Source: Terriglobia bacterium (GTDB taxonomy: Bacteria > Acidobacteriota > Terriglobia > Bryobacterales > Bryobacteraceae). Taken from it: a stretch of DNA of 64,000 nucleotides. A model generated the notes under the pieces. The model searched no databases and had not been told where the DNA came from. It saw only the letters and a list, made by a program, of their open reading frames with translations. Positions 49,471 to 62,186 of the stretch are shown piece by piece. The translations under genes were made by a program, and so were the position numbers. The number at the start of each line of letters is the position of its first letter. The stretch's first letter is position 1. The stretch lies in contig JAIQFI010000007.1 in the NCBI GenBank assembly GCA_020073345.1, positions 62,001 to 126,000 of the forward strand, in the 5' to 3' direction.

Positions 49471-50934
49471 GTGCCACGGAAACACACTCTGCCGCTGCTG
49501 TTCCCGCTGGTGTTCGCCCTATTGCTGGCGATCCATTTGCCGTTCCTGCGGCTGCCCTATTTCTGGGACGAACAGTGGCAATACGCGCTCGCCGCACTGG
49601 ACTTGTATCGCGACGGCTCCTGGGTGAGCCATACTGTTTCACCCAGTGTGCATCCGCCGGGCGTCATGGCTCTGGTGGCACTGGTGTGGCACGTTTTCGG
49701 GTACTCGATTGTCGCGGCGCGGGTGACCATGCTCGCGGTTGCCTCGCTGGGCGCTCTACTTTCCTTCCTCCTGGCCACTCGATTGGCGCGCGGGACTGCC
49801 GGAGCATCCGCCCTTGCGGCTGTTCTGTTCCTGATCGCCGCGCCGATCTTCTACACCCAGTCGATGCTGGTGATTCTGGATATGCCGGCCATGACGTTCA
49901 CGGTTCTCGCCCTGCTGCTCTTCCTGGACGGCCGCTATCTTTGGTGCGCGTTGGCCTGCACCATTCTGGTCCTGACCAAGGAGACTGCCGTCACCACTCC
50001 CGCGGTGCTCGCGGCGTGGCTGTGGTTTCGCGAAACGCGCCGGCGGCAGGCACTCTATTTCGTTTTGCCCGCGATCGCGCTAGGGACGTGGCTGCTGATT
50101 ATTCGGCGCGCCACGGGACATTGGCTCGGAAACGAGCATTTCGCCAGTTACAACCTCGCCGGCGCGCTCGATCCCATTCACATTGTGCTGGACGTCGCGG
50201 AGCGCGCCCGCGCTCTGTTCTGGAGCGATGGACATTTTCTGGGGACCATCGCACTAGTGATCGGATGGCGCCTGTTGCGTGGGAAAGCGTGGACCGTCTG
50301 CGGACTGGTCGCCGTGGCGCAAGTGATCGTTGTGACTGTGTTCGGCGGCCCGCTGGTCCGGTACCTGTTGCCCGTCCTGCCGATCTTATACGCGGCTGTG
50401 GCGACATCAGCGTCGGTCTATCCTCCCAAGTGGCGTTGGACTTCACACGCGGCCATGATCGTTCTGCTGATCGCAGGATGGTTCTGGAATCCGCCGTATC
50501 CGTTTGCGTACGAAAACAACCTGGCGATGGTGGATTTCATCCGGCTCCAGCAGGATGCGGCGAGCTACCTGGAAGCCAACGCGCCTGGCCAACGCATCGC
50601 GACTGCGTGGCCGCTCACGGACGAAATCACAAATCCGGACCTGGGATATGTCACGCGCCCCTTACAGACCGTCGATGCCGGCGGACTACGTAGGGACTAC
50701 CTGGCGCGTCTGAATCGCCAGAGCTTCGATCTTCTCGTCGTGTACAAACGGCTACGGCCCGCCGCGGGCACCATCCTGGACATCGCGCCCTTGCGCAATG
50801 TGCTCGAGCATTATTACGAGTACCATCCGCAGGCCACCGCGGAGGAAATCCGTGCTGAGCTGGGCTTCGTTCCGCTGATGCGCTGGGAGCGGAGGGATCA
50901 GTGGATCGAGATCTATCGGCCCGGCACCCGCTGA
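49471..50934 (+). CDS. PMT/ArnT-like membrane glycosyltransferase
   Basis: The 487-residue protein has about ten transmembrane helices. The first external loop has PYFWDEQWQYALAALDL, with the acidic pair that is catalytic in GT-C (PMT_2/ArnT) enzymes, and VHPPGVMAL and LDMPAMTFTVL follow. These enzymes transfer a sugar from a polyprenyl phosphate on the outer side of the membrane. The soluble C-terminus is about 120 residues. The start is a GTG at 49471. Acceptor unknown. Confidence 0.8.
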   Translation: MPRKHTLPLLFPLVFALLLAIHLPFLRLPYFWDEQWQYALAALDLYRDGSWVSHTVSPSVHPPGVMALVALVWHVFGYSIVAARVTMLAVASLGALLSFLLATRLARGTAGASALAAVLFLIAAPIFYTQSMLVILDMPAMTFTVLALLLFLDGRYLWCALACTILVLTKETAVTTPAVLAAWLWFRETRRRQALYFVLPAIALGTWLLIIRRATGHWLGNEHFASYNLAGALDPIHIVLDVAERARALFWSDGHFLGTIALVIGWRLLRGKAWTVCGLVAVAQVIVVTVFGGPLVRYLLPVLPILYAAVATSASVYPPKWRWTSHAAMIVLLIAGWFWNPPYPFAYENNLAMVDFIRLQQDAASYLEANAPGQRIATAWPLTDEITNPDLGYVTRPLQTVDAGGLRRDYLARLNRQSFDLLVVYKRLRPAAGTILDIAPLRNVLEHYYEYHPQATAEEIRAELGFVPLMRWERRDQWIEIYRPGTR

Positions 50935-50957
50935 ACCCAAGTGGAATTCCCCGGGTG

Positions 50958-50963
50958 TATACT
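50958..50963 (+). promoter_or_regulatory. Candidate -10 for the mono-haem propeller gene
   Basis: TATACT (5/6) ends 7 bp before an in-frame ATG at 50971, 33 bp upstream of the preferred ATG at 51004. The latter has its own GAGGAG. Either a leaderless start at 50971 or a short leader is possible. Confidence 0.35.
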
Positions 50964-51003
50964 GGCCCCGATGCGAGGTGTCACAGGAGTCACGAGGAGC
51001 CCT

Positions 51004-53196
51004 ATGAAAACTCTGAAGCTCACGATCTTTGGCGCGGCCGCCGTCGGCTTAGTCGTTGTTGCTGCGATGTTCCTGGTTTCGTCGCCGGTCCTAATCCAGG
51101 CACAGCAACCTAAAGCTGCAGCCGTCCAGGTCGACCCCGATGATATCGGCGGCGCAGTCACCGGTCCCAAGGGTCCGGAAGCCGGGGTGTGGGTGATCGC
51201 CGAAACCACCGATCTGCCCACCCGCTTCAGCAAGACCGTCGTCACCGACGACCGCGGGCGCTACCTGATCCCCGATCTTCCCAAGGCCAATTACACCGTA
51301 TGGACGCGCGGCTACGGCCTGGTCGATTCCGCCAAGACGCAGTCCGCTCCCGGCAAGGTTGTGAACCTGACGGCCGTCGTCGCGCCCAACGCCGCCGCCG
51401 CGGCCGAGTTTTATCCCGCCAACTATTGGTATTCCCTGCTCCAGCTTCCCGCCAAGAACGAATTCCCCGGCACTGGACCGAATGGCAACGGGATCAGCCC
51501 CAACATGCACAGCCAGGCGGAGTGGCTCCACGTAATCAAGACCGATAGCTGCGAATCCTGCCACCAGCTCGGCACCAAAGCCACCCGCACGCTCCCGACC
51601 AATATCGGAACATTCGACTCTCCCGCGCAGGCCTGGGCTCGCCGCGTCCAATCCGGGCAAGCCGGTTCCATGATGAGCGGCGGCCTGAACCAGCTCGGCG
51701 CCCCACGCGCCACCGCGATGTTCGGCGATTGGACCAGCCGCATCGCCAAAGGCGAATTGCCCAAGGAAGCTCCGCCGCGTCCGCAAGGCGTCGAGCGCAA
51801 CGTCGTGATCACACAATGGGACTGGGCCGATCCCAAAGCGTATCTCCATGACGAGATCGCCACCGATAAACGCAACCCTACCGTGAACGCCAACGGCCCC
51901 CTCTACGGATCAGCGGAAGAGAGCCGCGACTATCTCCCCGTCCTCGATCCGGTTCACAACACCGCCAGCACCGTCAAGGTGCCGTACCGCGATCCCAACA
52001 CCCCTGGTCAGCCCAAACCTCTGCAGGCTTCCCAGTTCTGGGGCGACGAATCCATTTGGGACAGTCACGTGACGGTCCACAATCCTATGTTTGACGAGAA
52101 GGGCCGCGTATGGTTCACCTCTCGCGTGGGCGTCTCCGACGATCCGGCTTTCTGTAAGGAAGGTTCCAGCCATCCGTCGGCGAAGGTTCTCCCGCTGAAC
52201 AATTCTGGACGCCACCTCGCCGTGTACGATCCTAAAACCAAAAAAGTCGACCTCATCCGGACCTGTTTCAGCACCCACCACCTGCAGTTCGCTGAAGACG
52301 CCAACAACACTCTGTGGACCAGCAGCGGCGGCGGCGGCGGAGCGGTCGGCTGGCTGAACACCAAGCTGTGGGATCAGACTCACGACGAAGAAAAATCGCA
52401 AGGCTGGGCTCCGTTCATTCTCGATACCAACGGTAATGGTAAGCGCGACGCCTACGTCGAGCCGAACCAGCCGGTCGATCCCGCCAAGGACAAGCGCCTC
52501 AATATCGGACTCTACGGCGTAACCGTCAGCCCCAAGGACGGGTCCATCTGGGGAACGGTTCTCGGTTTCCCCGGCGCGGTTGTTCGCGTGCTGCCGGGGA
52601 CAGACCCCACCCATACGGCTCTGTCTGAATACTACGAAGTTCCGTGGAACACTCCTGCCGCGAAGGTGCAAGGCTTCTCGCCGCGAGGCCTCGACATCGA
52701 TCGCAATGGCGTGGTGTGGACCGTGCTCGCCAGCGGACATCTGGCCAGCTTCGATCGCAGCAAGTGCAAAGGTCCGCTGAACGGTCCCAACGCCACCGGA
52801 CCACATTGCGTGGAAGGCTGGGCGCTGTATCAATCCCCCGGTCCGAAATTCAAGGGCGGCGAAGAGTACGGCAGCGCCGACTCGCATTACTACGACTGGG
52901 TCGATCAGTTCGATACGTTCGGCCTGGGCAAGAACGTGCCCGTGGCCACCGGGAACGACTCCGACTCACTCCTCGCGCTCGTGAACGGAAAGTGGGTGAT
53001 CCTGCGCGTTCCCTACCCCATCGGTTTCTTCGCCAAAGGGCTCGATGGCCGCATCGACGATCCGAACACCGGCTGGAAGGGCAAGGGCCTGTGGTCCACC
53101 TGGTCCACCCGCACGCCGTTCCACAGCGAAACCGGCAAGGGAACCACCAGCAAAGTCGTGAAATTCCAGCTCCGTCCCGATCCGCTCGCCCGGTAA
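51004..53196 (+). CDS. Secreted protein with carboxypeptidase-regulatory-like domain, one haem c site and propeller-like region
   Basis: The 730-residue protein has a signal/anchor (LTIFGAAAVGLVVVAAMFLV). A carboxypeptidase-regulatory-like beta domain follows (VTDDRGRYLIPDLPKANYTVWTRGYG), then one CESCH motif (Cys183, Cys186, His187) for covalent haem. The rest contains Vgb-lyase-like blades (NTLWTSSGGGG, GVTVSPKDGSIWGTVLGFPG, DIDRNGVVWTVLASGHLA). No catalytic site is assigned. It may be a periplasmic redox protein. The ATG at 51004 follows GAGGAG and is preferred over in-frame starts at 50941 and 50971. The frameshifted gene downstream starts 2 bp after its stop. Confidence 0.75.
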   Translation: MKTLKLTIFGAAAVGLVVVAAMFLVSSPVLIQAQQPKAAAVQVDPDDIGGAVTGPKGPEAGVWVIAETTDLPTRFSKTVVTDDRGRYLIPDLPKANYTVWTRGYGLVDSAKTQSAPGKVVNLTAVVAPNAAAAAEFYPANYWYSLLQLPAKNEFPGTGPNGNGISPNMHSQAEWLHVIKTDSCESCHQLGTKATRTLPTNIGTFDSPAQAWARRVQSGQAGSMMSGGLNQLGAPRATAMFGDWTSRIAKGELPKEAPPRPQGVERNVVITQWDWADPKAYLHDEIATDKRNPTVNANGPLYGSAEESRDYLPVLDPVHNTASTVKVPYRDPNTPGQPKPLQASQFWGDESIWDSHVTVHNPMFDEKGRVWFTSRVGVSDDPAFCKEGSSHPSAKVLPLNNSGRHLAVYDPKTKKVDLIRTCFSTHHLQFAEDANNTLWTSSGGGGGAVGWLNTKLWDQTHDEEKSQGWAPFILDTNGNGKRDAYVEPNQPVDPAKDKRLNIGLYGVTVSPKDGSIWGTVLGFPGAVVRVLPGTDPTHTALSEYYEVPWNTPAAKVQGFSPRGLDIDRNGVVWTVLASGHLASFDRSKCKGPLNGPNATGPHCVEGWALYQSPGPKFKGGEEYGSADSHYYDWVDQFDTFGLGKNVPVATGNDSDSLLALVNGKWVILRVPYPIGFFAKGLDGRIDDPNTGWKGKGLWSTWSTRTPFHSETGKGTTSKVVKFQLRPDPLAR

Positions 53197-53198
53197 CG

Positions 53199-54133
53199 AT
53201 GTACAGAAGACTGTTTGCGATTCCGCTTTCACCGCTTTCGCACAGGCCCAAAACGGGGCCTGCGATCGTGCATGCCTCGAAGGTTTCGTGAACCAGTACC
53301 TCGCCGCACTCGAAGCCCGCGATCCTTCCAAGCTCCCGCTGGCCAAGAGTGCCAAGTACACCGAAAACGGCGTGCAGCTCAAGTTGGGCGACGGTATGTG
53401 GGGACCGGTCGTAAAGATGACCGAATACAAGCTCTATTTCGCCGATCCCAAGGCCGGCCAGGTGGGATTCTACGGATCGCTTGAAGAGCACGGGCATCCC
53501 GCCATTCTCGGCCTGCGCCTCAAGATCGAAGACCGCAAGATCAGCGAAATGGAAGCCATCGTCCTGCGCTCCACCGCGCGTGGAACGTTTTCCGACGTGA
53601 AGGCGCTCAAGGTCGATCCCATCATGACCCAGCCGCTCGCTCCCTCCGAGCGGCGCACGCGCGATGAGCTGATCACCGCATCCGACGCCTATTTCGAAGG
53701 CATGGAGAAAGGCACCGACAAAGTCACTCCCTTCGACCCGGATTGCAAGCGAATCGAAAACGGAGTGGTAACCGCGAACGATCCCGGCAATGCCAAACAG
53801 ATCAGCCGGATTCCCTGCGGCCAGCAGTTCGCCACCGGTTTCACCAAGGTCATCACCAAAGTGCACGAGCGGCGCTACCCTGTGGTCGACGAAGAACGCG
53901 GCTTGGTGTGGGGATTCATCCGCTTCGACCACGCCGGCAAGGATAAGACCATCACATACAATGACGGCTCCATCCACCCCGTGAACACGCCCTTCGACGA
54001 GCCATTTTCCTTCCAGATCTGCGAGCTCTTCAAGGTCCGCAACGGTAAGCTTCTGCGCATCGAAGCCCTGGTCGCACCGGTCCCCTACGGCATGCCCACC
54101 GGCTGGGGCGGAAAGCCCAGTCATAAAGAATGA
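53199..54133 (+). CDS. Secreted DUF8021-like protein with an apparent -1 frameshift
   Basis: The intact downstream frame (from the GTG at 53288) encodes 281 residues with KLPLAKSAKYTENGVQLKLGDG, EALVAPVPYGMPTGWG and two similar NTF2-like halves. Read upstream without a start, this frame continues as AQAQNGACDRACLEGF, a conserved N-terminus of the family, but it has no signal peptide. In another frame an ATG at 53199 gives MYRRLFAIPL. Joining the two at the T run 53227-53229 restores MYRRLFAIPL-FTAFAQAQNGACDRACLEGF. One T seems to be missing. It may be a pseudogene, a sequencing error or genuine frameshifting. The ATG is 2 bp after the preceding stop. Confidence 0.65.
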
Positions 54134-54153
54134 CCGGCAAGCCCAGCCACTAG

Positions 54154-54174
54154 GAATAACCGCCGCGGTTATTC
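54154..54174. terminator. Strong hairpin between convergent genes
   Basis: GAATAACCG and CGGTTATTC are perfect 9-bp arms around a CCG loop. It is followed by three imperfect decamers ending in TTCGCG or TTTGCG. It lies between two convergent stop codons (54133 and 54199), so it could terminate both transcripts, although neither side has a long T run. Confidence 0.5.
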
Positions 54175-54198
54175 GCGTTTATTTGCGTTCATTCGCGG

Positions 54199-55887
54199 CT
54201 ACCAAAGTTGCCACTGGCCGAACGCCAGAACGTATACGGCCAGCAAGGCATTGGTAGTCGCATGGGCGGCGACGGCCTCCCCGATTCTCCCCCGCCGGAT
54301 GACCGCGAAAGCGTACAGCAGCCCTGCCAGGATTCCCGCGAGCCAATGGCCGCCGTGCAGAGCGCCGAATAGCACGGACGAGATCACCAGCGCGAACCAG
54401 GTGAACCGCGTGAAGGCTACCGACTCGAAGTCTTGCGAGATCAGACGGCGCAGAAGAAACCCGCGAAAGGCAAGTTCCTCGGCGATCGGAACCGTAACGG
54501 TGGCCGCCAGGACTCGAAAAGAAATCCAAGTGATCCGCGCCGCGGCCGAGGATGCGCTCAGCACACCCGGCATAGCCGTCACCACCGGAGCGCTCCAAAG
54601 ACGGTCCAGGCCGACCCAGACGATAAACACACCCGCCCCGATCGCTGGTCCCAGCCACCCCACTCTCCAGTTCAGAGTCGAATACCTGGTTCGAAACGCC
54701 CATAGCGCTCCCGCCGCCGCAAAGAACCGCAGCGGATACAACCATTCGAACCCCCCGCTCAGCGCGCCCGAGACCATTCCTGCACCCAAAATCACCAGGA
54801 ACGGGACTAGATAGGCGGCCGTGGGATTATCCTCGGTTCGAGTTGACGATCCCGCCTGGGTCGGGTTCAAGGTGAAATACGGCGTCCGCCGCGCAGCCAC
54901 CGAGAAACCCAGCGCGACTAAGTTAAACGCGATCCAGCCCGCTTGCGAGTGAAACCCTCCTACGGCGATCTCGCGCGCGCCCGCGCTGCCGATCAGGATC
55001 AACGCTGCAATGCGCACCGCGTTGAGCAGATACATCACCACCACTCCGGCTGGAATCAGAAGCAGCGCCTGCGGGAAACGGCACTCCTTCCGGAACAGGC
55101 ACAACCAGACCACGCCGAATGCCAGCATCAGACCGGCGCCCTCGAAGCCCGAGCACTGTTCCGCAATTTCTACCCTGAAGTTGCCGGTCCCGATAATCAT
55201 CTTGGCCGGGTCGGCTGTTACGCTGGAGGCAAAAAACTCCAGCAATACCTCCACCAGACGGAACGTGACGCGGCCCATCGGCCGCCACAACGTCCTGCCC
55301 GAATTTCCCACCACACAGGCCGCGACCACCGCCGCCGACGTGAATAGCCACAGGTATCCAGTGCCGCGCACCATTTGGATCCACTGCGCGAGAGGAATAG
55401 CCGCAAGTCCCGCGAAGGAAATCGCGGCAACGCCCGCTGCCAGCCAGCTTCCGGCGATCAGATCCGCCTGGACGCCCGAAACGCCGGTTTTGTACAGAGC
55501 GATGGTGAGGGCGCCGGTCAGAACCATCGCGGCAACGTGTGCTGCTAGAAAACCCCTCCCAACCGGGATGGCAGCCAGCCGTTGAGAGATCTCATCAAAG
55601 GTGGGTTTGCTCCTCAGATACCCGAAGGTTACGAAGAGTGCGGCGAAACCCACGATGCACCGCACGATCCACGGTCCCCAGGCGGCCAGAAATCGCAGCA
55701 AGCTGCCCCGGTTCGCAAGCTCGGCCCCGTCGGCTGCCACCGAGAGGACCAGCAATTCCACGGCAAAGATACCCGCCAGCGTGAGCAGGCGAAAGAATAC
55801 TCCAAATCGCTGGATGTTGATCGAAAGGGGGGATGCCGTGTCGGGCGCCCCAACGGACACCGCATGTGCTGGGGAGAGTTCAGGCAC
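54199..55887 (-). CDS. xrtE: Exosortase/CPBP-protease fusion (XrtE, VPEID-CTERM type)
   Basis: The 562-residue polytopic protein has an exosortase core: Cys245 in EQCSGFEG, Arg292 in LLNAVRIAALI and His313 in GFHSQAGWIAF form the catalytic triad. A linker leads into a CPBP (CAAX-type) intramembrane protease domain with AEELAFRGFLL (Glu470, Glu471, Arg475), ALHGGHW (His511) and AHATTNALL (His542). This domain order is that of exosortase E of the VPEID-CTERM system. Such enzymes cleave C-terminal sorting tags of exported proteins. The start is a GTG. No substrate gene is seen nearby. Confidence 0.85.
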   Translation of the reverse strand: MPELSPAHAVSVGAPDTASPLSINIQRFGVFFRLLTLAGIFAVELLVLSVAADGAELANRGSLLRFLAAWGPWIVRCIVGFAALFVTFGYLRSKPTFDEISQRLAAIPVGRGFLAAHVAAMVLTGALTIALYKTGVSGVQADLIAGSWLAAGVAAISFAGLAAIPLAQWIQMVRGTGYLWLFTSAAVVAACVVGNSGRTLWRPMGRVTFRLVEVLLEFFASSVTADPAKMIIGTGNFRVEIAEQCSGFEGAGLMLAFGVVWLCLFRKECRFPQALLLIPAGVVVMYLLNAVRIAALILIGSAGAREIAVGGFHSQAGWIAFNLVALGFSVAARRTPYFTLNPTQAGSSTRTEDNPTAAYLVPFLVILGAGMVSGALSGGFEWLYPLRFFAAAGALWAFRTRYSTLNWRVGWLGPAIGAGVFIVWVGLDRLWSAPVVTAMPGVLSASSAAARITWISFRVLAATVTVPIAEELAFRGFLLRRLISQDFESVAFTRFTWFALVISSVLFGALHGGHWLAGILAGLLYAFAVIRRGRIGEAVAAHATTNALLAVYVLAFGQWQLW

Positions 55888-55916
55888 GATGGTTCAGGGA
55901 AAATTCTTCAGGAGAA

Positions 55917-55946
55917 TCACGGACACAGCCAGTGCCGAGTCCGTGA
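55917..55946. repeat. Inverted repeat upstream of the exosortase gene
   Basis: TCACGGAC and GTCCGTGA are perfect 8-bp arms separated by 14 bp. The near arm is 30 bp before the GTG at 55887. It could be an operator or a leader hairpin. Confidence 0.5.
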
Positions 55947-56173
55947 ATAATGTCGAAGGGACTAGCTACTTCTTGTGCCGTCCGCGCATCACCAGCAACG
56001 CACCCTCCTTTTGGCTACCGTGATTCAAAGAGTATACATCAGGATGCCGGGGGTTTAGCGTCCCCAACGGCGGCCGGAAGTCCTGGTACTTGTTGTCGAA
56101 GACTGATCATGGATGCAGCCGGCGCTCCGTTTGAATTGTAAACGCCCCCGAGCGAACCTTTCCCGGGCAATTT

Positions 56174-56190
56174 CCGCACTTTTGGTGCCA
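56174..56190 (-). promoter_or_regulatory. Possible sigma-54-type promoter of the exosortase gene
   Basis: The minus strand reads TGGCACCAAAAGTGCGG. It has GG and GC separated by 10 bp as in -24/-12 promoters, and TGGCAC is a perfect -24 core. The -12 box (GTGCG) deviates from TTGCA. The site is also a near dyad (GCAC/GTGC), so an operator is an alternative. Confidence 0.25.
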
Positions 56191-56262
56191 AAACAGGGGA
56201 TTTCCGGGCCGTAACCCTAACGAAAGGCAGCTTTACGACCGATAGCCGAATGCTGACCCTAA

Positions 56263-58758
56263 ATGCCCACTCAAGCTAAGGCGGACCGACCTTCGTCGCC
56301 GGGACAGAAGCTTCCCGTCAGGCGCGGCCCGAGTGTCACCGCCGGGGAAGCGCCGCCAGTCGCCCTTAAAGAGCCAAATCAGGAGGAATTCTCCGATCGC
56401 CACAACGACCGGGAGTTCCGCCACTTTGCCGAGAGCATCGTCCAACATATTGATGAGGTCTTCTTCTGGCGCGATCCGGACAACCTGAAACCGTACTTCG
56501 TTAGTCATGCCTACGAACGGATCTGGGGACAGTCTTGTCACAGCGTCTACGCGGAACCCTCCTCGTGGACCGAGTCCATCCACCCGAACGATCGGGAGCG
56601 AGTGACCCAGGAGTCTCAGCGCGCCGCGACCGCCCCTCAAACACAGGTGGAGTACCGCATCGTCCGGCCTGATGGCGACGTGCGCTGGGTCTGGGCGCGA
56701 ACGTTTCTGGTCGAATCCCAGGATGGAACCGCGAAGCGGCTGATCGGGATCGCACAGGACGTTACGGAACGCAAGCAGGCCGAAAAGATGAGGGCGTTCC
56801 TGGCGTCCATCGTGGAATCCTCGGACGATAGCATCATCGGAACCGACCTGGACGGCAGAATCCTGAGCTGGAACCAGGGCGCCGAGAAGCTTTTTGGCTA
56901 CACCCCCGACGAAGCCATCGGGAAGCACATTACCCTCCTGTTCCGGGTGGACCGTCAGGCGGATCATTTGAATACGTTACACAAGATCCGGCGGCAGGAA
57001 CAGATCGAGCGTCTGGAAGGCGTGCGTGTGAGAAAAGACGGGACATCCATCGATGTGTCGATCATCCTGTCACCCATCAAAGATGCCCTGGGGCGTCTTC
57101 AGGGCGTCTCTGCGATTTACCGCGATATCACCGCCAGCAAACGAGCCGATGCCGAGCTCTTGAAGGCCAAGGAGGCCGCCGAAGCGGCCAGCCGGGCCAA
57201 GAGTACGTTCCTGGCGACCATGAGTCACGAGATTCGCACGCCCATGAACGGCATCCTGGGCATGACCGAGTTGGTATTGGACAGCGATCTTACGCCGGAC
57301 CAGCGCGACAGTCTGGATCTGGTCCACCTTTCGGCCGAGTCCCTTCTCTCCGTGATTAACGACATCCTGGACTTTTCCAAGATTGAAGCCGGCAAGATGG
57401 AGTTTGAGTCTATTCCTTTTGATCTCCGCGAGACGCTGGGCGAAACCATGGAGACGCTGGGTTTCCGTGCTCACCAGAAGGGCCTCGAACTCGTCTACGA
57501 TCTCGAGCCGGATGTGCCGGCGGCCTTGTTGGGCGATCCGGGACGCCTCCGCCAGGTTTTAGTGAACCTGGTCGGTAATGCCATCAAGTTCACGGAACAA
57601 GGCGAGATTCTGGTCAACGTTGGGCGGGAATCGGAATCACCTGACGCTGTTTGTCTGCATTTTTCAGTCAAGGATACCGGAGTAGGAATCCCCGCGGAAA
57701 AGCAGGAAAAGATTTTCGAGGCGTTTTCCCAAGCCGATGGATCCATGACCCGCAAGTACGGCGGAACTGGTTTGGGGCTGACCATCTGCGGGAGACTTGT
57801 GGAGATCATGAACGGACGCATCTGGGTGGAAAGCCAGATCGGACAAGGCAGTACCTTCCACTTCACCACGCGTCTGGGTGTTCAGCGCGTAGTTTCCGAA
57901 CCGGCGGCTCACCTTCATCCCGCGCAGTTACGTGATTTACCCGTGCTGATCGTGGATGACAATTCTACCAACCGGCGAGTCCTGACCGAGATGCTCACCC
58001 GCTGGGGAATGAAGCCCACAGCGGTCGACGGCGGCCGTGCCGCGCTGATGGCGCTGGAGATCGCTAAGAGTATCGGCCGCCCGTTCGCCCTCATTCTCTT
58101 GGATGGACACATGCCGGAAATGGATGGATTCACTCTCGCCGGGGAGATTCAGAACCATCCGGAACTCGTGCGGACAACCATCATGATGTTAACTTCCGCG
58201 GATCACTTGGGCGCCGCCACACTCTGTCGGGAGCGTGGCATCTCCGCTTATCTGGTGAAGCCCATTCGCCAGTCTGAACTCTTGGCCATGATCTGCAGAG
58301 GCATGCAAGTTCCTCAAGAACCCACCGAGGGTCCCAGGATTTCTATTGCCCCGGCCAACACCAACACTCAATCCCGGGTGCTCGTGGCTGAAGACAATGT
58401 CGTGAATCAAGCCCTGGCGCGGCGCCTGCTGGAGAAACGAGGCTACGCGGTATCGGTTGTAAAAGATGGCCGGGCAGCCGTAGAGGCCGTGAAGCACGAG
58501 CGTTTTGACATCGTGCTCATGGACATTCAGATGCCTAACATGGATGGATTCGAGGCTACCGCCGCCATCCGGCGACATGAACAACTGACTGGCATCCGCG
58601 TCCCCATCGTGGCCCTGACTGCACACGCACTCAAGGGTGACGACGAGCGCTGCCTCGCCGCGGGGATGGATGCCTATATTTCCAAACCGATCCGGCAAGA
58701 GGACCTGTACGTCACCATTGAAAACATGCTCGGCCGGATTCCGGCGCAATTGAACTAG
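56263..58758 (+). CDS. Hybrid sensor histidine kinase, PAS-PAS-HisKA-HATPase-REC-REC
   Basis: The 831-residue protein has no transmembrane helix. A first PAS/PAC (about residues 45-170, ending IGIAQDVTERKQAE) and a second (IVESSDDSIIGTDLDGRILSWN ... YRDITASKRA) precede HisKA with MSHEIRTPMNG, where His322 is the phosphoacceptor. The ATPase has DTGVGIP and GGTGLGLTI. Two receiver domains follow, with Asp614 in LLDGHMPEMDG and Asp754 in LMDIQMPNMDG. It is a cytosolic phosphorelay kinase. The output partner is not in the window. It is divergent from the exosortase gene. Confidence 0.93.
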   Translation: MPTQAKADRPSSPGQKLPVRRGPSVTAGEAPPVALKEPNQEEFSDRHNDREFRHFAESIVQHIDEVFFWRDPDNLKPYFVSHAYERIWGQSCHSVYAEPSSWTESIHPNDRERVTQESQRAATAPQTQVEYRIVRPDGDVRWVWARTFLVESQDGTAKRLIGIAQDVTERKQAEKMRAFLASIVESSDDSIIGTDLDGRILSWNQGAEKLFGYTPDEAIGKHITLLFRVDRQADHLNTLHKIRRQEQIERLEGVRVRKDGTSIDVSIILSPIKDALGRLQGVSAIYRDITASKRADAELLKAKEAAEAASRAKSTFLATMSHEIRTPMNGILGMTELVLDSDLTPDQRDSLDLVHLSAESLLSVINDILDFSKIEAGKMEFESIPFDLRETLGETMETLGFRAHQKGLELVYDLEPDVPAALLGDPGRLRQVLVNLVGNAIKFTEQGEILVNVGRESESPDAVCLHFSVKDTGVGIPAEKQEKIFEAFSQADGSMTRKYGGTGLGLTICGRLVEIMNGRIWVESQIGQGSTFHFTTRLGVQRVVSEPAAHLHPAQLRDLPVLIVDDNSTNRRVLTEMLTRWGMKPTAVDGGRAALMALEIAKSIGRPFALILLDGHMPEMDGFTLAGEIQNHPELVRTTIMMLTSADHLGAATLCRERGISAYLVKPIRQSELLAMICRGMQVPQEPTEGPRISIAPANTNTQSRVLVAEDNVVNQALARRLLEKRGYAVSVVKDGRAAVEAVKHERFDIVLMDIQMPNMDGFEATAAIRRHEQLTGIRVPIVALTAHALKGDDERCLAAGMDAYISKPIRQEDLYVTIENMLGRIPAQLN

Positions 58759-58764
58759 CTTCGA

Positions 58765-59667
58765 TTACTTCGCCGCCGCGGCTTTTCTTTGCTCCTCCAG
58801 AACCGCGTTGAACGCCGTCTCCTGAATGTCCAGTTCGGTCTTATATCCCTGCGGGTCGATAAACGGATTCGGCCCCTTGCCCAGCTTCGGATACTTTTCC
58901 GCCAGGTTGTACATCGCCGGATGCGACCCCAACGGCACATCGCACTTCAGCCCTCTCAGAATCCGAAAACTGCGCTGATATTCCTCGGCGATCTGCGGCA
59001 CTTGCGGATTGTTCACCAGCCACGTTCCCTGGTTGACACCCACGCTCCCGATGATCACCACCTCATACGCCCGGCCGCCTTCCTGAATGGTCGCGGTCCA
59101 CGTGGTGCATCCGCGAGTGTGCCCCGGCGTCAGATGCGCCACCAGCGTCGTGCCGCCCAGCGTCACTTTCTCCCCGTCATGAATAACCTTGTAGTCCGGG
59201 CGACGTGCCCCGCTCGGCGTCCGCATGGTCTGCAGCGCCGGAATGTCTTCGGCCATCGCCATGGCTTGCGCGCCGCTCAGCTCCAGCGCCAGCGGATCGC
59301 CTTCCATATGATCCCCATGCGCGTGGCTCCCCAGCAGGATCTTGATATCGGTGAACTTGAACCCCAGCTTCTCCACCGACGCCTTGATCACCGGCACCGT
59401 GCGTTCATAATCGCTGTTGATGAGGATGTTCCCCTGCGGCGTCACGATCAAAAACGTCCCCAGGCTCCGCGTGCCGACGTAGTACAGGTTCCCGATGATC
59501 TTGTGCGGCGGAAACGCCGTGTCCTGATCTTCCTTGGTTCCGACGTTGCGCGTGAACAGCTCCGCCGCCGTCCACACCTTGCCGGCCTGGGCCATCAACG
59601 CCGCCGCGCCGCAGCCAGCGAGAATCAGCCCTGGCAGAATAAATCGAGAAAGTCTTTCGGTCCGCAT
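58765..59667 (-). CDS. Exported subclass-B3-like metallo-beta-lactamase-fold hydrolase
   Basis: The 300-residue protein has a signal peptide, then PHKIIGNLYYVGTRSLGTFLIVTPQGNILIN, LLGSHAHGDHMEGD (metal site HxHxDH), LTPGHTRGCTTW and a further His in PLGSHPAMYN. This arrangement matches subclass B3 metallo-beta-lactamases and their environmental relatives. Whether it hydrolyses beta-lactams is unknown, since many B3-like soil enzymes do not. The Met at 59667 is preferred over the 16-residue extension. Convergent with the histidine kinase, 6 bp apart. Confidence 0.85.
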   Translation of the reverse strand: MRTERLSRFILPGLILAGCGAAALMAQAGKVWTAAELFTRNVGTKEDQDTAFPPHKIIGNLYYVGTRSLGTFLIVTPQGNILINSDYERTVPVIKASVEKLGFKFTDIKILLGSHAHGDHMEGDPLALELSGAQAMAMAEDIPALQTMRTPSGARRPDYKVIHDGEKVTLGGTTLVAHLTPGHTRGCTTWTATIQEGGRAYEVVIIGSVGVNQGTWLVNNPQVPQIAEEYQRSFRILRGLKCDVPLGSHPAMYNLAEKYPKLGKGPNPFIDPQGYKTELDIQETAFNAVLEEQRKAAAAK

Positions 59668-59780
59668 AAGTGACAACAGAATATCAGATCCCTTCTGGGG
59701 TGTTATCCTTCTCAAACATAGGTCTGACGGCAGCCGCGGTTTATTGGAAGTCTTAGGAGCCTTTCATCGTCTAAATACAA

Positions 59781-62186
59781 ATGAGTCTGCTCGGCGACAT
59801 CCGCTTGAGTCTTCGGACCCTGGTCAAGAATCCAGGTTTCACGGCGGTGGCCGTGACGATGCTCGCCGTCGGTATCGGCATCAATGCCACCGTCTTCACA
59901 GTGACGAACGCCGTACTGTTCAAGGGATTCGCGCTGGTGGAGAGGAACGATCGCCTCCGCTACATTGGCTACAAAAACTCCAATTGTTGCGTCTCCTACC
60001 CCGATTTCCTGGATTGGAGGGCTCAGTCGAAGTCGTTCGAGGGCATGGCGATCGTCCACGGCGTGAGCATCATGCTCAGCGATGACCACGGCTTTCCGGA
60101 TAATCTCTCCGCGAACGAAAACAGCGCCGATACTTTCAAGGTTGTTGGCCAGAGACCGATGCTTGGGCGAGATTTTACGGCGTCCGATGAAACCGACGGC
60201 GCTCCTCCCGTCGCGATCCTGAACTACGGCTTCTGGGAACGCCGCTACGGAAAGGATCACAACATCATCGGCCGGACGTTGCGGATGAACGGCGCTCCGA
60301 CGACCGTAATCGGTGTCATGCCGGAAGGCTTTTCCTTCCCCCAGAGGGTCGATGTCTGGGTGCCGCTGGTGCGGACGCGGAATGTCCTAAAGCGAGAGAA
60401 CCGCGCCACCTGGGTCGTACTCGCCCGCCTGGCGGACGGCGTAACCATGGAGAACGCCCGCGCGGAAATGGAGATCATCGGAAGGAGGCTCGCCGGCGCC
60501 TACCCGCTTACCAATCGGGACCTGCTTCCCGAAATACAGACTTTCGACCAGTTCTTCATAGGTCCGAACGCGGTCCTGATTTACGGGTCTATGTGGGGCG
60601 CGGTTGGTTTTGTGCTGTTGATTGCCTGCGCCAATCTGGCGAACCTTCTGCTTGCTCGCGCGATCGGCAGGTCCCGCGAGATTTCGGTCCGCATCGCGCT
60701 CGGCGCAGGGCGATGGCGGATCGTTCGGCAACTCCTCATCGAAAGCCTGATGCTATCCGGGTTGGGCGGATTCCTCGGCTGGTGGATTGCAAAATGGGGT
60801 GTGCGCACCTACGAAATCGCCATGGCTGCCAAATCCTCATGGCTGATTCTCGATTACTCCATGGACCAACGCGTCCTTGAATATCTCATCGTGATTTCCA
60901 TTGGGACCGGATTGCTGTTCGGGCTTGCGCCCGCCCTGCGGCTCTCCAGACTCGACGTCAATGCCACGTTGAAAGACGGGGGCCGGGGTGCCACCGCCGG
61001 AGGGCACGGAAAATATCTCTCCGCTCTTCTTGTGACCGGAGAAATGGCGCTGGCCATAGTGCTTCTCGCGGGAGCGGGCGTGATGATCCGCAGCTTCCTG
61101 AAGATCCACAACGCGGATATGGGCGTCAATACAGCCAACGTGCTCGGTGGAACCCTGAATCTCCCTTCCGAAAAGTATCCGCACCCGGAGGACAAGATTT
61201 CGTTTTTCGACCGCCTTATAACGCGCCTGGAGGCGATCCCCGGCGTGGAATCGGTGGCAACAGCCGACACCCTCCCTAGCTGGGGTTCTACCAGGCTTCC
61301 CTACGAGCTTGCGGGCGCCCCTCCACCGGACGGGCCCCGCCCAAGGCTTTCCACACTGAAGATCAGCCCGGCGTACTTCCAGATCCTGGGAGCGAAGCTG
61401 CTCTCTGGCCGTGAATTCAACGATGGCGATGTGGCTTCGGCAGTTCCCGTAGTGATCGTGAACCAGCTGTTGGCGAGCAAGTTTTGGCCGAGTGACGATC
61501 CTCTCGGCAAACGGCTCCGCTTGTTTGATAAGGACACGCCAGAAACGTGGCTGACCGTCGTCGGAGTCGTGTCGAATATCATCCAGAATGACCAAACCCG
61601 GCAGATGGTCGATCCTGTGGCTTACTTGCCCTATCGCCAAAAACCGGGAGGAGGCGCGTGGATTCTCGCGCGAACTCGCGTCCCTCCGGGCAATCTGGCC
61701 AATGCCTTTCGCAGTGAGGTGCACGCACTGGATCCCGACCTGCCCTTGTATGGCCCCATGCCCATTGCCGACCGGCTGGAGGGGTATTGGGACAGCCGAT
61801 TCTATGGCGGACTATTCGTGATTTTCGCTGCGATTGCGCTCTTGCTTGCTTCGATCGGCTTGTATACCGTGATCGCGCATGCCGTGAGCCAGCGCACTCA
61901 GGAAATTGGAATCCGGATGGCGATCGGCGGAACGCCCCGCGATATTCTCGCACTCGTGTTCCGGCAGGGAATGATTCCCTTGGCCATCGGTCTGGCCATC
62001 GGACTGCCCGCATCCTTTGCCGTCAACCGCCTGTTGAAATCCATGCTCGTCCAGGTTTCACCGGCGGACCCGGTCACACTCGCCGTCGCCTCCGCCGTGC
62101 TGATTCTGTCCGCAACGCTCGGTTGTCTGATTCCGGCACGCCGCGCCATGCGCGTCGATCCGGTTGTCGCTTTGAGAAACGAATAG
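59781..62186 (+). CDS. ADOP-type ABC transporter permease (MacB/FtsX-like)
   Basis: The 801-residue protein starts LLGDIRLSLRTLVKNPGFTAVAVTMLAVGIGINATVF, the typical start of acidobacterial duplicated orphan permeases. It has two MacB periplasmic core regions (PVAILNYGFWERRYGKD; VPVVIVNQLLASKFWPSDDPLGKRLR) and two FtsX blocks (CANLANLLLARAIGRSREISVRIALGAG; TQEIGIRMAIGGTPRDI). The CCVSYPDFLDWR motif is usual. No ATPase gene is adjacent, as the family name implies. It probably uses a shared ATPase elsewhere to export a lipid or peptide. Confidence 0.9.
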   Translation: MSLLGDIRLSLRTLVKNPGFTAVAVTMLAVGIGINATVFTVTNAVLFKGFALVERNDRLRYIGYKNSNCCVSYPDFLDWRAQSKSFEGMAIVHGVSIMLSDDHGFPDNLSANENSADTFKVVGQRPMLGRDFTASDETDGAPPVAILNYGFWERRYGKDHNIIGRTLRMNGAPTTVIGVMPEGFSFPQRVDVWVPLVRTRNVLKRENRATWVVLARLADGVTMENARAEMEIIGRRLAGAYPLTNRDLLPEIQTFDQFFIGPNAVLIYGSMWGAVGFVLLIACANLANLLLARAIGRSREISVRIALGAGRWRIVRQLLIESLMLSGLGGFLGWWIAKWGVRTYEIAMAAKSSWLILDYSMDQRVLEYLIVISIGTGLLFGLAPALRLSRLDVNATLKDGGRGATAGGHGKYLSALLVTGEMALAIVLLAGAGVMIRSFLKIHNADMGVNTANVLGGTLNLPSEKYPHPEDKISFFDRLITRLEAIPGVESVATADTLPSWGSTRLPYELAGAPPPDGPRPRLSTLKISPAYFQILGAKLLSGREFNDGDVASAVPVVIVNQLLASKFWPSDDPLGKRLRLFDKDTPETWLTVVGVVSNIIQNDQTRQMVDPVAYLPYRQKPGGGAWILARTRVPPGNLANAFRSEVHALDPDLPLYGPMPIADRLEGYWDSRFYGGLFVIFAAIALLLASIGLYTVIAHAVSQRTQEIGIRMAIGGTPRDILALVFRQGMIPLAIGLAIGLPASFAVNRLLKSMLVQVSPADPVTLAVASAVLILSATLGCLIPARRAMRVDPVVALRNE

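Follow-up and report, generated by a model that had tools for sequence, protein, structure and literature searches.

The window, i.e., the whole 64,000-nucleotide stretch of DNA analyzed here, carries on its minus strand a gene encoding a fusion of exosortase E with a CPBP (Rce1-like) intramembrane protease (xrtE, 54199..55887). Starting from a GTG codon, the gene constitutes an open frame of 562 amino acids, the product of which scores 219 bits against the exosortase E/protease model TIGR04162 (curated cut-off 150) and harbors, on one chain, matches over cut-off to two Pfam domains. The exosortase domain (PF09721, 45 bits; protein residues 112-330, 54898..55554, minus strand) contains C245, R292, and H313, and the CPBP or Rce1-like glutamic protease domain (PF02517, 57.6 bits; residues 454-548, 54244..54528, minus strand) contains E470, E471, R475, H511, and H542. 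As judged by these matches, the window gene is a member of the known exosortase E family. An earlier note on this DNA had described an intact fusion with these eight catalytic residues, and both descriptions hold: all eight are invariant among 29 aligned fusions of the order, the window's included, and in an alignment of 63 fusions that spans several phyla and again includes the window's (translated without the start codon, so that residue numbers are alignment positions plus one) C245, R292, H313, E470, E471, R475, and H542, together with N546, are invariant and H511 is conserved in at least 90%. AlphaFold2, run on the 63 sequences, yielded a single confident model of XrtE (mean pLDDT 91.2, pTM 0.84). 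Relatives of XrtE with a solved structure were found neither by sequence profile (0 matches at E 0.01) nor by Foldseek (0 at E 0.001; best E 2.7). The protein SpdC, which we take to adopt a CPBP-type fold, ranked second in the Foldseek search, but its E value of 4.5 proves nothing.

The xrtE frame is intact and without sign of decay or relaxed selection. The nearest XrtE among those aligned, 75% identical to the window's, is encoded in a genome of the same genus (G072, contig C4, locus L078). Comparison of the two orthologues gave a dN/dS of 0.195, a value that spans both branches since the split from G072 and in which the effect of a recent loss of the partner would be invisible. With respect to the outgroups L102, L079, L066, L062, and L075, pN was 0.331, 0.322, 0.346, 0.358, and 0.324 for window XrtE versus 0.341, 0.346, 0.367, 0.357, and 0.336 for the L078 orthologue, the tags of which are intact. 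The window copy shows the lower value for four of the five outgroups and is therefore not the faster one.

A partner gene cut to its last 12 codons

A relic of a PEI(D/S)P-CTERM substrate gene, 39 bases in size and consisting of the last 12 codons and the stop (GALLVMRGRHKK*), is located at 55966..56004 on the minus strand, 78 bases upstream of the xrtE start codon. It was detected with our own tag profile, built from 30 tails taken from tags beside XrtE or from the genome of the window, as the best match among 1485 stop-to-stop frames of at least 20 codons: the shortened tag in frame 55966-56106 (minus strand, i-E 0.0005) is the sole notable match in the window, the next having a value of 1.0, and none of the frames contains a complete tag. 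The claim that no product of the window ends in a sorting tag thus stands for intact products, and that of a missing substrate gene requires a correction, since the 3′ end of the partner is still present.

Comparison of window positions 50001-62000 with L078 by blastn returned only two blocks, 58765-59690 (86.5% DNA identity to L078 2480-3401) and 53199-56004 (L078 7797-10554). At L078, two tag genes lie upstream of xrtE, and the block of homology that includes xrtE starts inside the second one. The relic matches the 3′ end of this second tag gene at 43 of 45 bases (E 4e-17) and keeps its syntenic place, its strand, the same stop, and six bases beyond the stop, whereas the part of the former gene encoding the signal peptide and the PEI motif is absent from the window. 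Mere chance resemblance of the relic to a tag gene is a very remote alternative: the match is 12 codons long, and at the protein level its whole-genome E value is 0.157, but a coincidence would have to account at once for the identity of the bases, the place and strand, the stop, and the sequence beyond it. A rearrangement has cut the partner gene to its last 12 codons, which is why the window xrtE stands alone.

The segment that starts at the break inside the tag gene (56005..58764) has no match to L078, and nothing in G072 corresponds to it at the syntenic place. Past the break now lies the gene of a hybrid sensor histidine kinase/response regulator of 831 amino acids (56263..58758, plus strand; Pfam PAS, HisKA, HATPase_c, and Response_reg), the present upstream neighbor of xrtE, which probably arrived together with the break. 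The far side of the syntenic block is marked by a minus-strand gene (58765..59715) recognized by translation and blastn, with a HAHGDH motif and a product that is metallo-beta-lactamase-like by eye. On the other side of xrtE, and convergent with it, an uncharacterized plus-strand gene for at least 281 amino acids (53288..54133) lies inside the block shared with L078 according to blastn; it matched neither Pfam (E 0.1) nor NCBIfam (E 1) models and, as far as seen, is not part of the enzyme system.

Tag proteins and further exosortases in the same genome

The genome of the window (G000) comprises 6.23 Mb in 98 contigs and is 97.5% complete, so that further tags may be missing from the following account. 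With the own tag profile, exactly three strong matches (E 3e-16 to 7e-15; next 0.025) were obtained: two genes in tandem on contig C35 (C35:122015 and C35:122195) and one on contig C63 (C63:19518) beside a second XrtE fusion (C63:17787-19022, 214 bits to TIGR04162). The encoded proteins of 52, 53, and 69 amino acids are composed of a signal peptide, 5-13 residues, PEI(D/S)P, a hydrophobic helix, and a basic tail; according to a simple signal-peptide rule, not a trained predictor, all three start with a signal peptide and have the tripartite tail close to the C-terminus. Their tags read APEISPASGVGALALLSGALLVIRGRRKK (or ...KR) or SPEIDPGSGVIALTLLSGALLAIRGRRRT followed by 8 more residues, and the C63 protein has 9 extra residues beyond its RGRRR run. 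A tag-bearing partner is thus encoded in the genome in the form of three PEI(D/S)P-CTERM proteins, none of them intact within the window. The earlier note had supposed that the substrates lie elsewhere or bear a different tag. The first supposition was borne out (two genes on C35, one on C63), and the second was not, the tags being of the expected kind with PEI[DS]P, hydrophobic helix, and Arg/Lys tail. It had also remarked that a clear VPEID-CTERM set elsewhere in the genome would render the lone enzyme routine, and three intact tag genes, one of them next to a second XrtE, largely amount to such a set. Against the VPEID-CTERM model TIGR04161, however, the tags reach 19-24.5 bits (about 24.4 and 19 for C35 and 21-22 for C63; E 2.7e-4, 0.0016, and 0.012 for the three) and remain below the cut-off of 33; they are therefore called VPEID-CTERM-like, not members. 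As a control, 14 well-known genomes were searched at E 10, where the VPEID-CTERM model matched nine and the PEP-CTERM model 13, none over cut-off, so that only the best matches count.

The tandem genes on C35 (L063 9372-9788) have tags that are identical at all 28 residues compared and at 93% of bases, and their leaders are far more diverged; the pair looks as though tags had been homogenized or swapped as modules.

A PEP-CTERM/EpsH-type system is present separately in this genome, with 21 listed PEP-CTERM places, 18 of which exceed the Pfam cut-off, and a classic exosortase on contig C40 that scores 243.8 bits against PF09721 and is, from what we know of the family, presumably the partner of these PEP-CTERM proteins. 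Their tails read PEP, not PEI, and the cargo proteins are larger. A different tag class for the window enzyme was rejected, since searches of the genome gave the three PEI(D/S)P tags, noise, and the presumed C40 PEP-CTERM tags. A stand-alone CPBP protease is also encoded (G000:C48:16372-17004, a 227-aa frame), with 143.8 bits to the PEP-CTERM-related model TIGR03008.

With its intact frame and no relaxed selection, the window XrtE most likely acts in trans on the C35 pair and the C63 tag protein, in which case it would still be a working enzyme. It is unlikely, in our estimate, that the window copy is instead a redundant duplicate on its way out, which would have lost its substrate and all function and left the work to the C63 copy. 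Such a course would be consistent with the relic state of the partner gene, with the second fusion and its intact adjoining tag, and with the lack of a sigma-70-like promoter match in 55800-56400, a weak test with 0.2 matches expected by chance; it is hard to reconcile with an open frame of 562 codons that retains every catalytic residue, with the dN/dS given above, and with pN values to five outgroups by which the window copy is not faster than the L078 orthologue. We therefore hold with good confidence that XrtE is one of two fusions of this genome, that its tiny upstream partner was broken by a rearrangement, and that it likely serves the remaining tags in trans. The lone XrtE is thereby mostly explained: it belongs to a known family, its partner is broken locally, and ordinary if tiny partners are encoded elsewhere in the genome.

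Distribution of XrtE and its tags

TIGR04162 detects XrtE in 47 of 200 genomes of the order at E 1e-20 and, over its cut-off, in 37 (40 loci); tags occur at E 1e-5 in 41 of the 200. Counted by genus, XrtE (E 1e-20) is found in 24 of 75 and tags in 20 of 75. Tags are present in 36 of the 37 genomes with XrtE over cut-off versus five of the 163 others (Fisher p 4e-33, without correction for kinship), an association that assumes both searches to have drawn the same 200 genomes, with which the listed handles agree. In G159, the one XrtE genome without a tag at E 1e-5, a weaker one (20.8 bits) lies next to xrtE. Among the tag genomes without XrtE over cut-off (G003, G034, G190, G192, and G084), G192 holds an XrtE fragment and G084 a split form. 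In the latter (L106 7280-8888), the exosortase and CPBP halves reside in two overlapping stop-to-stop frames, adjoined by a tag and a hydroxylase gene.

At 34 of the 40 loci of the order, a tag of at least 20 bits lies within 1 kb of the XrtE frame, a figure that is partly in-sample because the profile was built from XrtE-adjacent or own-genome tags; for the same reason, the absence of tags from 158 of the 163 other genomes is the independent part of the association, i.e., its specificity. By script, 26 of these 34 tags were classed as upstream on the same strand, seven as downstream only, and one as on the opposite strand, although the tag at L085, classed as downstream, reaches into the start of the stop-to-stop frame and in fact counts as upstream. 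The six loci without an adjacent tag are the window, L067, L090, L091, L092, and L103, at least three of them cut by contig ends or frame breaks. These six loci, together with the 18 PEP-CTERM places in the genome, could be taken to indicate that XrtE is an orphan serving another tag class such as the genome's PEP-CTERM proteins. This is, however, highly improbable in view of the separate classic exosortase on C40, of PEP-CTERM tails that read PEP rather than PEI, and of the co-occurrence of XrtE with PEI(D/S)P tags over 200 genomes.

Similar pairs extend beyond the order. Among 80 named XrtE loci, many of which also figure in the survey of the order, 64 have a tag-ending frame of at least 14 bits in the fetched flanks and 16 do not. 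The tags of named loci come from Acidobacteriota, Planctomycetota, Pseudomonadota, and one record titled Thermodesulfobacteriota, and the fetched flanks of four myxobacterial XrtE loci (L193, L196, L217, and L231) yielded no tag frame. Across the phylum, XrtE was detected at E 1e-25 in three of 347 genomes (G000, G338, and G502), and in both genomes besides the window's a tag-like frame (14.4 and 42.6 bits) lies beside XrtE. Four loci on Rhodobacterales plasmids were read. In Rhodobacteraceae SC52, the 57-aa protein QIE43591.1, annotated as VPEID-CTERM and scoring 35.1 bits to TIGR04161, is encoded directly upstream of xrtE; at one plasmid locus a gene of 65 codons, hypothetical by annotation, encodes a product with this kind of tail at its end; L236 has a tag frame of 18.9 bits upstream of xrtE; and at L237 no tag was found by the own profile.

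The acidobacterial pairs thus resemble the exosortase E/VPEID-CTERM system (TIGR04162, TIGR04161) in having a fusion over cut-off, tags with a PEI(D) motif, a helix, and a basic end, and a tag gene adjoining xrtE as in SC52. They differ in that six of seven acidobacterial tags tested score 15.5-28.8 bits against TIGR04161 (cut-off 33) and one gives nothing, in that some tags read PEISP, and in that the window copy has lost its adjoining tag gene. Tags accompanying XrtE read PEI(D/S/N) or variants and lack the PEP motif of the PEP-CTERM/EpsH (XrtA) system.

On two of the Rhodobacterales plasmids, genes for large proteins of 965 and 989 amino acids (L235 6242-9139 and L238 6118-9087) lie two genes upstream of xrtE, preceding the gene of a small protein; both large proteins end in DCLC and neither bears a tag. 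At L107-L109 and L111-L113, only the CPBP part of TIGR04162 was matched, and these loci share a nearby gene for a protein that is TPR-like by eye.

Nearly cargo-free substrates and a linked lipid enzyme

The tag proteins of the order (67 distinct proteins of at least 25 bits, those refetched under named records left out) are small. In the 63 with an assigned start, the distance from the start to the PE motif is 19-33 residues, and between signal cleavage and tag an estimated 0-13 residues remain (median 5; at most 10 in 54 of 61 measured, by a simple rule, not a trained predictor). For the 63 proteins of the named records, some of the same family, the estimate is 0-78 residues with a median of 5.5 (60 measured). 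The tag has a dN/dS of 0.12 (34 pairs, selected for similar tags and including two repeat fetches) versus 0.83 for the leader, which was aligned without gaps so that its value is likely overestimated. Strong constraint on the tags but not on the leaders indicates that the small frames are real genes and that the tag itself is their conserved part. Substrates in this acidobacterial family are nearly cargo-free. The feature is already represented in databases, where at least one annotated VPEID-CTERM protein, from another phylum, is just as small. In the literature searched, no papers naming VPEID-CTERM or exosortase E were found, and none joining exosortase with sterol desaturase; a search for exosortase and acidobacteri gave none on topic by title. 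An earlier description of small XrtE substrates is possible. Such substrates are easily missed because their genes have only about 50 codons and score under the curated model.

What is known of the two enzyme families suggests how such a substrate might be processed. Like most of its relatives, the window enzyme once had as its partner a tiny tag protein encoded immediately upstream, and a small precursor of this kind would be anchored to the membrane through its signal peptide and its C-terminal helix. Outside the membrane, the Cys-Arg-His exosortase half would cleave the precursor at its Pro-Glu-Ile-(Asp/Ser) motif, and an amine or lipid acceptor may receive the short N-terminal product. The glutamic CPBP half would then cut inside the membrane, releasing or clearing the leftover helix.

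A gene encoding a fatty acid hydroxylase (PF04116), whose nearest NCBIfam model is the ornithine lipid hydroxylase OlsE at a score far under cut-off, adjoins the C35 tags. Another 14 acidobacterial loci have a hydroxylase gene next to tags or xrtE. Counting C35, 11 of 15 are arranged tail to tail with tag genes and two head to head (L250 and L255), one is on the same strand (L259), and one lies beside xrtE (L101). In the gammaproteobacterial loci L212, L213, L229, and L232, the hydroxylase gene directly follows xrtE on the same strand. In a tree, the tag-linked hydroxylases of Acidobacteriota fall together in a loosely supported group (15 linked among 17 rows), and the four from Gammaproteobacteria form a separate group. 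These two separate linkages suggest a working connection in some lineages, not a universal part of the system. In a hydroxylase search of the order, a tag lies within about 1.5 kb in 11 of the first 15 loci (L267-L281) and in none of the next 15 (L282-L296). Hydroxylases of at least 150 bits occur in 16 of the 200 genomes, and 13 of these also have tags (Fisher p 7e-8, uncorrected for kinship); 28 of the 41 tag genomes are without a hydroxylase at this score. Across the phylum, 26 of 347 genomes contain a hydroxylase at E 1e-32 or better and three contain XrtE, and none of the 24 fetched phylum hydroxylase loci (L297-L320) has a tag within about 1.5 kb. Only part of the hydroxylase family is tag-linked. 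As a strict XrtE marker the hydroxylase was rejected, its relatives in the phylum being mostly without XrtE or tags.

For the archaeosortase ArtA with PssA/PssD, lipid enzyme genes were found linked to the gene of the sorting enzyme, and this in turn led to evidence for a partner in lipid anchoring (PMC7157517). The hydroxylase link is of a like kind, and by analogy with artA/pssA a lipid acceptor for the XrtE system is a fair guess; the ArtA system differs, however, in being archaeal, in its PGF tags, and in employing another lipid enzyme (PMC7157517). The attachment target of exosortase substrates is not established in the accessible parts of PMC11980579 and PMC1569441. With the PEP-CTERM/EpsH (XrtA-type) system, the XrtE system shares the combination of a tripartite C-terminal tag and an exosortase, and four EpsH-CAAX protease fusions are already recorded in its description (Haft 2006, PMC1569441). 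The PEP motif, the larger cargo in the window's genome, and the sigma-54 consensus set PEP-CTERM/EpsH apart: no sigma-54 motif of the PEP-CTERM type was found in the 81 stretches upstream of tag genes here. In the myxosortase MrtX and the two-gene MrtJ/JDVT-CTERM system, a C-terminal sorting tag is likewise cut by a glutamic protease of the CPBP type, which in the latter system forms a gene pair with its single target; MrtX differs in lacking the exosortase half and in acting on a Cys-containing MYXO-CTERM tag predicted to be lipidated first (PMC11980579).

The small size of the substrates raises the question of whether they are cargo at all. The tag proteins might be precursors from which XrtE and its protease half make a short peptide or lipopeptide, or release the 25-residue helix as the active molecule, with the hydroxylase supplying or altering the lipid. 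Such a role is suggested by the short start-to-PE distance and the few residues left after cleavage (median 5, at most 13, in 61 proteins), by the conservation of the tag but not of the leader, and by hydroxylase genes adjoining tags or xrtE in two lineages. It is nevertheless improbable, since tag-ending frames of 250-391 codons lie near XrtE in other lineages (L215, L223, L226, and L234; L223 and L226 are weak at 17.9 and 14.8 bits), as would be the case for ordinary cargo, and since hydroxylases of this family elsewhere in the phylum mostly have no link to XrtE. Slightly more doubtful still is the broader proposal that XrtE of Bryobacteraceae no longer sorts proteins and instead processes cargo-free 50-residue precursors, often encoded in tandem, into a freed membrane helix or into very short peptides that are perhaps linked to lipid, a dedicated fatty acid hydroxylase being a third component in some genomes; the window copy would then illustrate that enzyme and precursor genes are separable and can work in trans. 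What remains of interest is why a sorting system should have substrates with almost nothing to sort, and whether the hydroxylase has a part in the answer. With a 50-residue substrate, a single enzyme, and, in certain genomes, an enzyme that modifies lipids, this is about the smallest testable exosortase system, and on its one small product both cleavage and any C-terminal adduct would be readable by mass spectrometry.

The DNA upstream of the tag genes (n=81) is enriched in the words CGGAGGA (14, of the ribosome-binding type), CTTGACG (12), TCGGAGG (12), TCGCGCT (11), and GTACTAG (10), the maximum being 8 in shuffles that kept only 2-base blocks. GTACTAG precedes tag genes at, e.g., L062, L066, L084, L101, and L242, in several cases 38-88 bases ahead of the start, and may be a promoter or operator; neither TTGAC nor GTACTAG is present upstream of the two C35 tag genes, and the words are a weak lead. 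Beside a hydroxylase relative in genome G103, which is absent from the XrtE and PEI-tag lists of the order survey, an 88-codon frame (L278 2299-2565, minus strand) ends like a cargo-free PEP-CTERM protein (VPEPATIALVGGGLAAAILYSRRKRGQK), suggesting that the PEP-CTERM system, too, may include tags without cargo.
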